The notes below the pieces were generated by a model. That model worked only from the letters and a program-made list of their open reading frames with translations. It was not told the origin of the DNA and searched no databases. A program made the translations under genes and the position numbers. From the IMG/VR virus record IMGVR_UViG_3300030103_005108, positions 2,825 to 24,797 of that record: 21,973 bases of DNA; one strand, written 5' to 3'. This DNA is from a virus. Numbering within the stretch: position 1 is the first letter of the stretch; every line of letters begins with the position of its first letter. Positions 1-21,749 of the stretch are shown piece after piece.

Positions 1-1008
1 GATAGATATCGTTTCTTTGGCAATCCTGGAACTAAGACCTCTAGAGAGAGGACTCAAGACCAGACAATTGGCACAGCTAACAGCAGATCTATCGTAAAGG
101 ACAAGGTACTTGTATCTCTTAGGGAATATACAGGTCCTGCTGACCCTAACAACACAAATCTTCCTAGCACATTCAAAATTGCTAGAGAAACCCTAATGAC
201 AGCTCAGCGTTTACTGCTTGATACTGGAAACTTAAATATGTTCCATCAATCAATTGGTTCGTTGACACTATTAGACGATTACCGCAGATGGCGTGACAGA
301 GTCTTCTTAGATGAACTATTTAAGACAGAATCTCGTGGTGCTTCCTCCGATACTCAGGGTGGTTACTACTATCCAAATACAAAGACAAAGTCTAACTCAA
401 CAACATTAAACTCATACTCTGCTACAGAATATGCTTCTGAGCGTTTCAAGTTTAATGTAAAGACTGACCTTCTTGAGGTAGTTAAGAGTTTAAGAAAGCG
501 TCACGTACCAGTATTCGCAGACGGATATTATCGTTGCATAGCAGATCCTTCATTCATGAAAGATCTAAGAGCTGATCAAGGCTTCCGTGAGGTAGCTAGA
601 TATCCAGGAATGGGACAAGGTTCACCTTTAATGGGTGCAATGGGTCCTAACCAAGCAATCTATGCTGGTGGACAGTATGGACAAGCTCAGTTCGTAGCTG
701 GTGAGCCAGTTATGCCTTCTGGATTCGTATTTGAAGGAGTAAGATTCTTTGAATCTACAAACTTCCCATCAAAAACAATTACGGTCGATATTGGTGATGG
801 AAATGGAGCTGTATCTAAGACAACTCCAGCAGGACTATTCTTTGGTCCTCAAGCTATCGGTGTTGGTGTCGGTGGTCCTAATGCTCAAGTTTTAATTAAT
901 AATAACGATGATTTTTCACGTTTTATCATTCTGATCTGGCAGTTATATGCTGGTTTTGCGAACTTGAATAAGGACTTCATCACCACTGCCTTCACAATTA
1001 CAGAGTAA
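1..1008 (+). CDS. Major capsid protein, N4-gp56-like, 5' end missing
   Basis: The reading frame is open from base 1 and continues without a stop into the ATG at 196, so the gene begins left of the window and 335 residues are visible. It looks like the shell protein of the icosahedral head, in the N4-gp56 branch of the HK97 fold. Supporting features are the helical stretch LLDTGNLNMFHQ, the segment ADGYYRCIADPSFMKDLRAD followed by GFREVARYPG, then GVRFFESTNFP, a GPQAIGVG turn and a C-terminal aromatic segment near IILIWQLYAGF. These match the order of elements I know for that family (a HP/DP-xxxxDLR region, then G-x-x-F-x-ES). It is followed after 16 nt by a second virion gene with a strong ribosome-binding site. 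The family call rests on motif recall, not on a search. Confidence 0.7.
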   Translation, partial: DRYRFFGNPGTKTSRERTQDQTIGTANSRSIVKDKVLVSLREYTGPADPNNTNLPSTFKIARETLMTAQRLLLDTGNLNMFHQSIGSLTLLDDYRRWRDRVFLDELFKTESRGASSDTQGGYYYPNTKTKSNSTTLNSYSATEYASERFKFNVKTDLLEVVKSLRKRHVPVFADGYYRCIADPSFMKDLRADQGFREVARYPGMGQGSPLMGAMGPNQAIYAGGQYGQAQFVAGEPVMPSGFVFEGVRFFESTNFPSKTITVDIGDGNGAVSKTTPAGLFFGPQAIGVGVGGPNAQVLINNNDDFSRFIILIWQLYAGFANLNKDFITTAFTITE

Positions 1009-3774: not shown

Positions 3775-4566
3775 GTGTCAAGTAGTAGTTCAAACAAACA
3801 ACCATTAATGGTGGATCGCCCAGCAACCGCTTCCACATTATGCACGGTTTCATCAGGGCAATCTTTTTTAACTAGTCTCATACCCACATCAGTTGGTGGA
3901 GCTACAAAGGTATTTGATGTTGACTCTGCTCTAACAGATACTGCAATCAGTGGTGCTTACGTAGATGAGATATTTTTTAGATACACTAAAAGAGTTTTAC
4001 AAACAATAGATGCTGTAACAGCTCCTACAGGAACATATTCTGCAAATAGTACTACTTGTACTGTTACTCTTTCATCTGGACATAATTTAGAAATTGGACA
4101 AAATGTATTTTTAGATTTTAAAACTTACAGTTCAGGTACAGTTCCAAAAGATGATACATTCACAGTATTAAACACAGTTAACTTCACTAGCACTACCTTT
4201 GATGTAACAATACCTTCTTTAGGAGGAACAATAACAGGTAATGTAGATATTTCTTTACCCACCGATTTCTGTTTTTATTTAGTAAATACAGGCACAGTAA
4301 CAAATATAAATCAATTTTTCCCTTTATTTGTAGCAAGTATTGATTGCAGTCAGCAAACTTACAGTTTAACTTTAAATGAAATATTACCTCTTATAAATCA
4401 TCCAACTGTGCAAGCTGGATCTAATTTTGGATCTGCTAACAATGAAATAGCTCCAAAACAAAGAGGATTAATGCTAAAAAGAGGGCAAGCTTTATATGTA
4501 GCTGCTAGTGGAGCTAATGCTTTGACTAATGGATTTTATTGTAATGTTCAAGGTGGATTCTATTAA
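3775..4566 (+). CDS. Virion protein with one HGL-type beta module
   Basis: This 263-residue protein starts at GTG 3775 (MSSSSSNKQPLMVDRP); the ATG at residue 12 is an alternative start. Residues about 87-160 form a beta module: TYSANSTTCTVTLSSGHNLE, then GQNVFLDF, TFTVLNTV, FDVTI and GNVDI. The same module type occurs three times in the 757-aa protein downstream, which points to a shared structural or adhesive role in the virion. A TATAAT-like hexamer (3743-3748) lies 27 bp upstream without a convincing -35 box. Head-fibre, neck or tail component are all possible. Its TAA is followed directly by the next ATG. Confidence 0.5.
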   Translation: MSSSSSNKQPLMVDRPATASTLCTVSSGQSFLTSLIPTSVGGATKVFDVDSALTDTAISGAYVDEIFFRYTKRVLQTIDAVTAPTGTYSANSTTCTVTLSSGHNLEIGQNVFLDFKTYSSGTVPKDDTFTVLNTVNFTSTTFDVTIPSLGGTITGNVDISLPTDFCFYLVNTGTVTNINQFFPLFVASIDCSQQTYSLTLNEILPLINHPTVQAGSNFGSANNEIAPKQRGLMLKRGQALYVAASGANALTNGFYCNVQGGFY

Positions 4567-4947: not shown

Positions 4948-7221
4948 ATGGCATTCGAAATAAAAGGTTTCGGTGAGCCATCAAAATTTAACTTTAAAAG
5001 TTTTGAAAATTTTAATAATAAATCAAAAAAACCAAATATTTATCCACGAGGATCTGATGGTTATCAATTAGAGAGTGAAGTAAAATTTTATAATCAGGAT
5101 TCTTTGTGGACAAGATGGAGAAGAGGATATGAATTATATGTAATGATGCAGACAATTTTAGGATCTACTTCTAAAGAAAGAGATAGAAGAGGAGATTATA
5201 GATTGTTTTTTACATTTCAGCAGTTTCCAGGAGTTTTTATACCAGCAAGAATATTTACTTTTCCTTCCAAAAATAAAGAATTAGGTGAACATGTTTGTGG
5301 AATGAGAGACACAGATGGATTTAGTTTTTATAATTTTGGATTACCAATACTCGCAGTGAGATATTTAGCACCTTCTGTAGATGCTACTTATCAACAAAAT
5401 GGTACAACTTTAGTTGTTACTAAAACTGATCATGGATTATTTCCGGGTGATGATGTTTTCTTAGATATATCTACTGGAAATGCAATTGATGAAACATTAG
5501 AAATTATTAGTAAAACGCAGAATACATTTACAGTCACAGCGACAAATTCTCTAACAACTTCAGGTAATGTAACCTATCATAATTCCACAACCTTTAATGA
5601 TACTCGTTGGAGGTTTGTAAGAGTTAAATTAAGAACTCTTCCTACAGAAGTAGCCTTTCTAGCCGGAGAAAGAATGGCCGATCGAATTATTGAAAAAGAT
5701 CCAGGGATATCCTCTACATATACAAGATCAGGTTCAGAGGTAACAGTAACCTGTAGTTCAGTTCATGGTTTATCTACAGGTAACAAAGTATTTTTAGATG
5801 TAAGTACAGGAAATGTAACTTCTGGTAGATACACAATAGAAGTTACTTCATCTACACAATTTAAAGTCACAACAATAACTAGTGGATCTACTTCGGGAAA
5901 CCTCACCTTAAGTAGATTATTAAGAGGATTTAGATATGACGATTATGTAGGGTATACCGTAACTGGATCTGATGTTAATACAAATGAGATAATTTTTCAA
6001 AAAAAAGATAGTTACGGAGCAAGAACTATTGATACAGTAGCAAAAACCACTGTGCCAGCTCATAGAGGTTTTGCTGTAGGTCGATTCTTAACTACAGAAC
6101 TAAGATGGAATTGTTCTTGTCAAGATTTTTCTAGAAGAGATTCTTATGATTTATTTAAAAGATCAACTGATTCAAGGTTTCCAGTAACACCAATAAGAGA
6201 TACAAAACCCGGAAATGTATTGCAACCAGACGGAACTCTTAGTGATGAGAGAGACATTCCTGGTACATTTAGAGATTTAGGTTACGTAACTATAAATAAT
6301 TTTTATGAATTACCGGAATATGAAGATAAAAAAGAAGATTCTTTTCAAAATTTACAATACTATCAACTTCGTTGGTGTAAACATATTTACGCAGCCATGT
6401 GGTCACTTGTTCATGATGAAGGTAATGAGCCACTTAAATTAGCAGCAAAATATACTCAGTCAGGTGTAAATATCACTGTTGACTTTGAAAATCATAATTT
6501 AAATAAAAACGATAAAATTCAATTAAATTTTACAAGTGGGAATGCAATTTCAGGAGAGTACACAATAAGTGATGTACCAAATCCAAATAGTTTCGTAGTT
6601 GTTTATCCTTTTGATGAGACTACCAGTGGTTATGTAACAGTAGAAAATTTAAAGAAACATGAATATGTTGGAGCATGGTTATTAGAACCTAATGACAAAC
6701 CTATAGGTCAAGGTCTCGAAGCATGGGAAAGAAATTGGAAGAAAGAACAAGAAAAGCTCAGAGAATCTGCAGAGATATTTGCTTTATATAATCGCTCGAC
6801 AAAATGGGAAGGTAATAAAGAAATTATTGGTAATTTTAACAATAAACAAAATGTAGCTAACTTTGATCCATCTGTAGTAGCAATGACGTTAACGGATAGT
6901 TTAAAGAGAGATGCACAGGGAGGATTGGATAGATCAGGACGATCTTTAAACACTACAAATAGAATGATTGCAATGGTTAATAAATTATTTAATAAAGCTC
7001 CAACAGTTTTAGATGATATTAAGTTTGGAATAATAAATAAACCTTTAATCGAATTTACCGATATTTTTGAATCTGGTTTGATTAATGCAGGCGATTATAT
7101 AAATGGAGAACTAGTAGATTCTGCAGTAAATACTAGTGATCTTGATGCTAGTACTTACAATCCAGATACTGCTCAAGATACAGTAGTAGATGCAGGATTA
7201 TACATAAATGTAGAAACTTAA
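4948..7221 (+). CDS. Large structural protein, beta modules and CxC/CxH set
   Basis: At 757 residues this is the largest protein in the window. A conserved core begins near residue 45 (SLWTRWRRGYELYVMMQ), followed by FTFQQFPGVFIPARIFTFPS and CGMRDTDGFSFYNFGLPIL. Three related beta modules interrupt the core at about 147-211, 257-323 and 502-568. Each has the plan T-x-Y-x-x-x-(G)-x-x-V-x-V, 'HGL/HNL', 'GD/GN/ND-x-V/I-x-L', 'STGN/TSGN', 'FTV' and a final 'SGNV/SGYV'. Between modules 2 and 3 lie C389-S-C391 (WNCSCQDF) and C477-K-H479 (RWCKHIYAAMW), the ligand pattern of a SWIM zinc site but with an 85-residue gap. Its size and place between neck-like genes and fibres suggest a main tail or nozzle component; that role is inferred. 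Confidence 0.55.
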   Translation: MAFEIKGFGEPSKFNFKSFENFNNKSKKPNIYPRGSDGYQLESEVKFYNQDSLWTRWRRGYELYVMMQTILGSTSKERDRRGDYRLFFTFQQFPGVFIPARIFTFPSKNKELGEHVCGMRDTDGFSFYNFGLPILAVRYLAPSVDATYQQNGTTLVVTKTDHGLFPGDDVFLDISTGNAIDETLEIISKTQNTFTVTATNSLTTSGNVTYHNSTTFNDTRWRFVRVKLRTLPTEVAFLAGERMADRIIEKDPGISSTYTRSGSEVTVTCSSVHGLSTGNKVFLDVSTGNVTSGRYTIEVTSSTQFKVTTITSGSTSGNLTLSRLLRGFRYDDYVGYTVTGSDVNTNEIIFQKKDSYGARTIDTVAKTTVPAHRGFAVGRFLTTELRWNCSCQDFSRRDSYDLFKRSTDSRFPVTPIRDTKPGNVLQPDGTLSDERDIPGTFRDLGYVTINNFYELPEYEDKKEDSFQNLQYYQLRWCKHIYAAMWSLVHDEGNEPLKLAAKYTQSGVNITVDFENHNLNKNDKIQLNFTSGNAISGEYTISDVPNPNSFVVVYPFDETTSGYVTVENLKKHEYVGAWLLEPNDKPIGQGLEAWERNWKKEQEKLRESAEIFALYNRSTKWEGNKEIIGNFNNKQNVANFDPSVVAMTLTDSLKRDAQGGLDRSGRSLNTTNRMIAMVNKLFNKAPTVLDDIKFGIINKPLIEFTDIFESGLINAGDYINGELVDSAVNTSDLDASTYNPDTAQDTVVDAGLYINVET

Positions 7222-20004: not shown

Positions 20005-20412
20005 GTGATTCACTGCGAGCAAGATCTTCTAGCAAATTTAATTGAACTCTCTCCAAAAAATGCTCGCCATAAATTTCGACAATGTATATTTGAATCTTGG
20101 AATTGGAAATGTGCTTACTGTGACAAAGTATTAGATAACAAAACAGCAACTATTGATCATATACTTCCAAAATTTAAAGGTGGACATAATGTTAAGTCAA
20201 ATATGATTTGTTCTTGTTCCAAATGTAATAGATTAAAAGGATCACATCTTTTAAAAGATTGGTACAATCCCACATATAAGTTTTACCAAGAGGAGAGACT
20301 TGATAAGATAAAGCAGTGGATGGATCAAGATAACTCTATTAAAATCCTCTCCCCTGATACAGCAACACCATATATCACAAATGAATTCTACATTGGATGG
20401 GCAGCTTCCTGA
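20005..20412 (+). CDS. HNH endonuclease
   Basis: The 135-residue protein has the HNH core at about residues 36-75: C36-A-Y-C39, a D51-H52 pair in 'ATIDHILPKFKGG', H61, N66 and the second zinc pair C71-S-K-C74 followed by N75-R-L-K. All zinc and catalytic positions expected of a zinc-bound HNH nuclease are present. It may be a free-standing homing-type nuclease, a phage recombination or host-DNA nuclease, or a packaging-linked nuclease. The start is GTG 20005 with AAGG five bases upstream; the overlapping ATG at 20003 meets a stop at once. Its 3' end overlaps the next gene by 32 bp. Confidence 0.75.
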   Translation: MIHCEQDLLANLIELSPKNARHKFRQCIFESWNWKCAYCDKVLDNKTATIDHILPKFKGGHNVKSNMICSCSKCNRLKGSHLLKDWYNPTYKFYQEERLDKIKQWMDQDNSIKILSPDTATPYITNEFYIGWAAS

Positions 20413-20954: not shown

Positions 20955-21749
20955 TTAAATAAGACTCCAACTTCTCCACCATTTAGTAATTATATATTTA
21001 TCTCCACTAATAGGTGGTAAAGCCTCATGAAGCGTTTTAAAATTTGGAATTCCGTTAAAAAATAAGTTATTCCAAGCAATTAATAAGCCTTTTTTTGGTT
21101 TTATCTTTAAATTAAGATGTTTGAAATAAGTTTCTCCCCCATCTTCAACATCATTTAGATATATCATTGTTGTCCAAGTTCTCTGACCCATCCATTCACA
21201 ATAAGTTTTGTATTCAGCTGTAAATGGAGCAAAGAAATCATGATGTTCTTTGTAATATTCTCCTATTGCATATTTTTGACCTTGCATATTTTCCCCAATA
21301 AAAGGATTTAAATTTAACAAATTTACTAATTTTTTATCAATATTTAAAAAAAATTCATCTTCAAAGTATCCTAAACTTGCCGATTGACTTGTTCTGTAAT
21401 CATTCACAAGGCAGGAATCATTTGGATCTGCAACTGTAGATGCTGTTAGTCGAGAATCTATAAAAGTAATCATATCAGTGCATTCGTTGTCTGTTAGAAA
21501 ATTTTCGTGTTTATATACTTGAGTAAATGGATATTTAATTCTTTCACATTGAGTAGTTAATCTATTTTTATAAAAATCTAAATAATTAATTTTTTTTGGT
21601 TTTTTCTTAAAAGAACAAACTTTAAACAAATATTTAATATCTTCATCATTTAATTTATATGTATTTTTAAATTCACGTATCACTTGCGTTTTACTAGCAC
21701 CACTTAAGGCACATTCCATAAATCTTTCTATTATGTAATCGTTTTTCAC
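20955..21749 (-). CDS. 2OG-Fe(II) oxygenase, prolyl 4-hydroxylase-like
   Basis: The 264-residue enzyme should hydroxylate a peptidyl or free substrate using 2-oxoglutarate, O2 and Fe(II). The double-stranded beta-helix core spans about residues 75-264. The iron ligands are H169-x-D171 (in EYYKEHHDFF) and H241 (in FKTLHEALPP), and K251 lies ten residues after H241, in the 2-oxoglutarate position. 'MIYLNDVEDGGETYF' and 'GDKYIITKWWR' are further family marks. An extra N-terminal helical part (about 1-70) precedes the core. The GTG start at 21749 has a poor ribosome-binding site, and M11 is an alternative. Such genes are common in cyanophages; the substrate is unknown. Confidence 0.85.
   Translation of the reverse strand: MKNDYIIERFMECALSGASKTQVIREFKNTYKLNDEDIKYLFKVCSFKKKPKKINYLDFYKNRLTTQCERIKYPFTQVYKHENFLTDNECTDMITFIDSRLTASTVADPNDSCLVNDYRTSQSASLGYFEDEFFLNIDKKLVNLLNLNPFIGENMQGQKYAIGEYYKEHHDFFAPFTAEYKTYCEWMGQRTWTTMIYLNDVEDGGETYFKHLNLKIKPKKGLLIAWNNLFFNGIPNFKTLHEALPPISGDKYIITKWWRSWSLI

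Follow-up and report, generated by a model that had tools for sequence, protein, structure and literature searches.

Four residues of a 757-amino-acid (aa) protein, which is common to the S-EIV1-lineage cyanophages that we examined and is probably borne on the virus particle, are likely to form one structural zinc site of the SWIM type (Cys3His). The protein is encoded in a window of 21,973 nucleotides, by which we mean the whole stretch of DNA analysed here (positions 2,825 to 24,797 of IMGVR_UViG_3300030103_005108, an IMG/VR virus record of 28.4 kb). Its residues C389, C391, C477 and H479 make up two pairs, C-x-C and C-x-H, separated by 85 residues, and both pairs are kept in relatives in which the segment between them is of a different length. 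The core of the protein has no convincing match in PHROGs, Pfam or NCBIfam, though it is conserved in the cyanophage lineage, and the four-residue set offers a testable handle (through metal content and ligand changes) on a probably structural protein.

The open reading frame and its genome

The positions of the features discussed here are collected in Table 1. Re-reading the translation of the open reading frame (ORF) bore out the initial annotation as to the four residues, their spacing and their contexts: the codons concerned extend from 6112 to 6384, the first pair is embedded in WNCSCQDF, and the second in RWCKHIYAAMW. The protein contains five cysteines in total.

Table 1. Positions of the split SWIM-like set and of associated features in the window (protein coordinates where so marked)
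Feature	Position	Strand	Remarks
Major capsid protein gene	1..1008	+	5' end outside the window; phrog_1357, E 9.1e-13
Beta-barrel, fourth copy, in the neighbouring 263-aa gene (3775-4566)	4030..4254	+	Domain E 2.2e-10
ORF, 757 aa, with split SWIM-like set	4948..7221	+	Stop codon included; homologous to S-EIV1 AHV82237.1
Beta-barrel domain 1, residues 142-215	5371..5592	+	FCCH/endosialidase-barrel-like; profile and fold match
Beta-barrel domain 2, residues 252-325	5701..5922	+	Profile and fold match
Predicted beta-hairpin into C-x-C, residues 380-389 (strands 380-383 and 386-389)	6085..6114	+	AlphaFold2; block pLDDT 83 at 381-390
First ligand pair, C389-S-C391	6112..6120	+	Followed by Q-D-F-S-R-R-D
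Insert between the pairs, residues 392-476 (85 aa)	6121..6375	+	pLDDT <50 over most of 393-467
Second ligand pair, C477-K-H479	6376..6384	+	
Predicted helix, residues 478-492, H479 at its start	6379..6423	+	AlphaFold2; block pLDDT 73 and 85 at 471-490
Beta-barrel domain 3, residues 495-570	6430..6657	+	4hiz_A match
DUF7406 match in a relative	L091 226-260 (protein)		20.0 bits, cut-off 28.4
U-box match in a relative	L199 175-221 (protein)		18.1 bits, cut-off 21.4

Among isolate records, the capsid protein of the window matched Synechococcus phage S-EIV1 alone at E 1e-5, sharing 69% identity with one of its reading frames. The genes for the capsid protein, a 271-aa protein, an HhH protein, a 159-aa protein, a 263-aa protein and the 757-aa protein follow one another in the same order in the window and in S-EIV1, with identities of 30% (271-aa), 45% (HhH), 57% (159-aa), 26% (263-aa) and 28-29% (757-aa, in two segments); S-EIV1, however, has further genes between some of them. 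Judged from these similarities, the window comes from a cyanophage of the S-EIV1 lineage. Gene order alone suggests that the 757-aa product is probably a particle protein and makes a tail component plausible, so that a tail or head-tail location may be proposed for it.

The S-EIV1 homologue, AHV82237.1 (527 aa, annotated as a hypothetical protein), occupies the same place in the gene order and is 27-31% identical to the 757-aa protein. It has the same four residues (C266, C268, C418 and H420), but with a gap of 149 residues and no inserted barrels detected, whereas the window protein has a gap of 85 residues and three barrels. According to its GenBank record, S-EIV1 originated from an arctic lake. 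A passage of PMC9382816 lists it among the Podoviridae, and a passage of PMC5332604 counts its lineage as one of the five cyanophage groups most abundant in data from the ocean; S-EIV1 is also treated in parts of PMC8790148, PMC9229316 and PMC6157547.

Some other genes may be mentioned here. The S-EIV1 capsid frame (KJ410740.1, 60997-61983, plus strand; L285, 30998-31984) is not one annotated gene in GenBank, where two coding sequences overlap it, one on the minus strand (60784-61545) and a short one on the plus strand (61540-62010). In the window, the HhH protein gene (1894-2397) comes soon after the capsid gene, and its product is a candidate for DNA binding in the particle or in packaging. 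Two more genes were recognized by eye, one for an HNH-like nuclease (20005-20412, plus strand) and one for a 2-oxoglutarate/Fe(II) oxygenase-like protein (20955-21749, minus strand).

Conservation of the four residues

Strict conservation in homologues had been proposed as a check on the split SWIM-like set, and all four residues turned out to be kept. In an alignment of 93 rows, they are present in 82 of the 82 rows that cover them (80 loci, together with the window protein and the record L001 from which it comes), the other 11 rows being short matches in the neighbouring gene. The least biased counts come from fetches with motif-free queries: all four ligands were found in 80 of 80 loci obtained with the window protein (the best 80 of 108 relatives) and in 102 of 109 loci obtained with N-terminal fragments (one of these fetches being the best 80 of 261), contigs recurring between fetches and the distinct sequences numbering 73 of 80 and 80 of 107. 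The seven remaining loci end early, four of them with C-x-C but before the second pair and three before the first. The 109 loci were examined out of 113 listed, the other four being already in the set under older ids. S-EIV1-type ORFs, in whose fetch one of six patterns contained CKH, have the four residues in 81 of 81 cases (S-EIV1 and 80 loci, the best 80 of 256 relatives).

Taking together the family ORFs of at least 300 aa among the matches listed, 375 of 385 have all four residues (242 distinct sequences), a count in which loci retrieved by searching for the motif's own DNA pattern are included as far as they were listed. The only misses are the other ten, which are without one or both pairs and all run off the fetched stretch. 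The wording CxCx[DEN][FYW] plus C[KR]H is present in every one of the 339 complete ORFs (211 distinct) among the matches listed. Both synonymous codons are used at every ligand position (TGT and TGC for cysteine, CAT and CAC for histidine), and thus the residue itself, not the DNA alone, appears to be under selection.

The family comprises two clades that are 25-31% identical outside the motif. In an alignment of 100 sequences (at least 25% identical to its first sequence, ten ORFs that lacked a clear ATG start being excluded), which was made without a motif filter yet contains motif-fetched loci, the four ligands are among 32 invariant columns. They are also among 36 invariant columns in an alignment of 62 sequences, in which the invariance of the motif is not independent because the rows were filtered by the motif (L080 was added by hand). 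The spacing within C-x-C and within C-x-H is fixed, and the gap between them amounts to 85 residues in the clade of the window protein and to 142-173 in the S-EIV1-type clade. This insert is evidently not mere filler, because its FP, KPG and RDxPG(x5)G elements are conserved in both clades and kept in at least 90% of the 100-sequence alignment. A diverged relative, L391 (4992-6352), reads CSCPDFMRRQ, and its stretch stops before the second pair; it has the CxCP that 15 of the 17 bacterial SWIM fingers compared below also show.

Predicted fold and inserted barrels

AlphaFold2 models were computed for the window protein from 62 sequences (mean pLDDT 68.6) and for an S-EIV1-type protein from 100 sequences (mean pLDDT 70.0). 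In the model of the window protein, pLDDT is below 50 at residues 393-427 and 429-467, and the residues right after C-x-C also score low. In the S-EIV1-type model, a hairpin of strands 257-260 and 263-266 (block means 94 and 74) precedes a helix at 419-427 (66 and 77), and both take the same motif positions as their counterparts in the window protein (Table 1). Thus, C-x-C ends a hairpin and C-x-H starts a helix in both models, the order of a SWIM finger, as predicted with moderate confidence.

On the reading that we prefer, zinc would clamp the hairpin ending in C-x-C to the helix beginning with C-x-H within a single chain, as in the beta-beta-alpha finger of SWIM, and the ordinary SWIM turn of 5-12 residues would be replaced by an excursion of 85-173 residues. 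The clamp would hold this excursion at its base and leave it free for contacts with partners, and the putative zinc site would serve folding and assembly, not DNA binding.

Fold searches revealed no convincing solved counterpart of the protein core among the matches listed. The full model had one Foldseek match at E <= 0.001, to the tail tube 9n71_A (E 4.2e-4, with rmsd 20.7 and a query-length TM of 0.09); the tube matches in VIA-align were 9l0f_G, at Z 9.1 on an inserted barrel, and again 9n71_A, weak at Z 5.5. Most fold matches of the full model fall on the inserted barrels, the best being to the phi92 endosialidase 4hiz_A (Z 10.3, rmsd 1.8 A, 74 aligned). BFVD gave 145 matches at E <= 0.001, and those listed are tail-fibre, baseplate, other named-domain and uncharacterized phage proteins. 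Foldseek found nothing at E <= 0.001 for the S-EIV1-type model, which is free of barrels, and the Z of its VIA-align matches did not exceed 6.3 (8zit_M, rmsd 4.0, 98 aligned); these VIA-align matches cover mostly residues 115-263, a common barrel-like arrangement. No SWIM structure was among the fold matches listed, which is uninformative either way, and the list of the first model was dominated by barrels. In a PDB search, the solved nozzle and tube proteins of podoviruses gave no sequence match.

The third of the three beta-barrel domains in the window protein is placed between the CKH helix and an E-P-x-D-x-P element (residues 580-585). The Pfam family PF12195 is matched by 15 of the 62 members of the smaller alignment (best E 1.4e-7), and the window protein scores 14.7 bits with it, below the cut-off of 35. 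Three barrels occur in all 96 distinct complete proteins with a gap of 85 residues and in none of the 115 with a longer gap (S-EIV1-type), as detected by a profile that was built from gap-85 copies and that a very diverged copy could escape; a search of 49 kb of S-EIV1 detected none. With four copies in the window, shared between two genes that lie close together, the module seems to spread within the structural gene cluster.

Relatives in sequence databases

Beyond the S-EIV1 lineage, no relatives were found in the databases searched. When isolate phage records were searched by tblastn, the whole protein gave five records at 1e-5, with the best places in the barrel region; the motif region alone gave S-EIV1 at E 1e-6; and residues 41-140 gave S-EIV1 at E 1e-3, with three further rows from Propionibacterium phages at E 7. 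Three Streptomyces phage matches to the motif region, at E 0.1-0.5, were taken as chance. The S-EIV1 protein itself, used as a tblastn query at E up to 10, retrieved only its own record. PHROGs matches at E <0.01 were on barrels wherever the place was shown, and weaker ones (E 0.015-1) concerned one or two members. NCBIfam had no match for the 757-aa protein or its S-EIV1 homologue, and the PDB sequence search returned the endosialidase barrel and, with the 100-sequence alignment as query, three rows at E 0.5-1.2.

The first of two scans of genome contigs yielded none, and the second yielded four contigs (L281-L284) in MAGs, which are probably misbinned phage contigs. The MAGs holding them are labelled Bacteroidetes, Aliivibrio and 'bacterium', and a Pfam SWIM search of the three MAGs gave none at E 0.001.

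Alternative explanations

It is extremely improbable that the likeness to SWIM is a matter of chance and that the four residues have no joint function. The Pfam SWIM profile does stay below its cut-off, and the gap is far beyond those of the SWIM fingers compared; yet C-x-C followed by C-x-H arose in 0.015% of 20,000 shuffles of the protein's own letters (a frequency of 0.00015), and an accidental set is already disfavoured by conservation over two clades about 25-31% identical. A redox or disulfide set in place of a metal site is a very unlikely explanation. It would suit the three cysteines present in all members reaching the region, often with a fourth just before C-x-C (YCCSC), but this additional cysteine occurs in 42 of 62 members and is not conserved, whereas the histidine, which disulfides do not need, is kept as strictly as the cysteines in the 375 of 385 ORFs counted among the matches listed.

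For other SWIM domains a role in binding DNA or protein is assumed, and the four residues might belong to a finger touching DNA or RNA, either in the path of the packaged genome or on ejection. The run CSCQDFSRRD, including both arginines, is invariant over the covering rows of the close family, as would suit such a finger, but the basic run changes in other relatives (THRD, RRE, RRS or RRQ, with KRRG or KRKG in two) while the ligands stay. Moreover, this analysis of sequences and models found no sign of DNA binding, the neighbouring HhH gene is a likelier DNA binder, and we consider a nucleic-acid finger unlikely. For the split SWIM-like set, the initial annotation had named either a zinc site stabilising a tail component or a DNA-contacting element exposed on ejection: a SWIM-like zinc site is well supported by the conserved ligands, the models of beta-beta-[insert]-alpha form and the weak SWIM profile matches, while nothing was found in favour of the DNA contact. 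Alternatively, C-x-C of one chain and C-x-H of the next could share the metal and so staple the subunits of a ring, ring proteins being usual around the phage portal. Between the pairs lies a long insert of variable length, predicted with low confidence, and each pair borders a better predicted element, an arrangement that might allow such sharing; the fact that a single chain supplies first the hairpin and then the helix, just as a SWIM finger does, argues instead for closure within the chain, and we consider the staple unlikely. One may also imagine, as a rather improbable scenario, that a SWIM finger was captured by the phage lineage and became an assembly clamp of the virion tail, its turn having been opened for a long partner-binding insert, possibly in a zinc-stapled ring of subunits that opens on DNA release.

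Relation to FCCH barrels and SWIM fingers

The three barrels of the window protein are of the kind known as FCCH/endosialidase barrel inserts (PF12195, PF16190), but they are separate from the zinc set. The structural zinc site that we favour is to be compared with the SWIM finger, which is a beta-beta-alpha structure with C-x-C after a hairpin and C-x-H at the start of a helix, is defined by a short linker joining its two pairs (CxCx(n)CxH), and is usually met in SWI2/SNF2 ATPases and transposases. The phage protein has in common with SWIM (PF04434) the order C-x-C ... C-x-H, the wording CKH[IV]xA after the second pair, a hairpin before and a helix after in the predicted models, and weak profile matches.

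The Pfam SWIM profile gave the window protein 11.9 bits against a cut-off of 19.6, and the best member 12.8 bits (E 0.087), likewise short of the cut-off; both matches cover the C-x-H half only, the insert being more than a local HMM could be expected to span. Weak SWIM matches were obtained for 27 of the 62 members (E up to 1), the most of any Pfam family. The others were DUF7406 (two members, 7e-4), DUF4222 (three, 0.0021), U-box (one, 0.003) and single ones at E >0.07. On rescanning 30 of the 62 members, all S-EIV1-type, two of these three families were located: the DUF7406 (two, within residues 213-260) and U-box (one, 175-221) matches proved to lie before C-x-C, outside the motif, and to score below cut-off. 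Six records of the lineage had no Pfam SWIM match above the cut-off; weak SWIM matches (13.3-13.5 bits) were seen in another gene, a 323-aa open frame, of the large records L395 and L396.

When the insert columns were omitted, hhalign matched both halves of the motif to 17 bacterial SWIM fingers (probability 72%, score 22.96). The best of 200 controls with all columns permuted scored 15.8; in controls with the ligand columns fixed and the rest permuted, the mean was 11.8, and one of 200 reached at least 22.96. Because this one ligand-fixed control outscored the real profile, part of the similarity is due to the ligands themselves, and these profile comparisons suggest a resemblance to SWIM that extends modestly beyond the ligands alone. 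The protein is not filed as a member of the SWIM family, because it has neither the short linker nor a Pfam score above the cut-off; the order of the four ligands is that of SWIM.

SWI2/SNF2 ATPases in mobile elements, a context of the SWIM domain, are treated in part of PMC5512222, and we found no SWIM zinc finger in a phage virion context in the literature searched. The gap between the pairs is 85-173 residues here versus 5-12 in the 17 bacterial SWIM fingers compared, whose fetch pattern allowed gaps of 4-40, and this suggests that inserts of such length are compatible with a SWIM-like metal site. Unlike the SWIM domains of SWI2/SNF2 ATPases or transposases, moreover, the phage protein sits in a structural-gene region.
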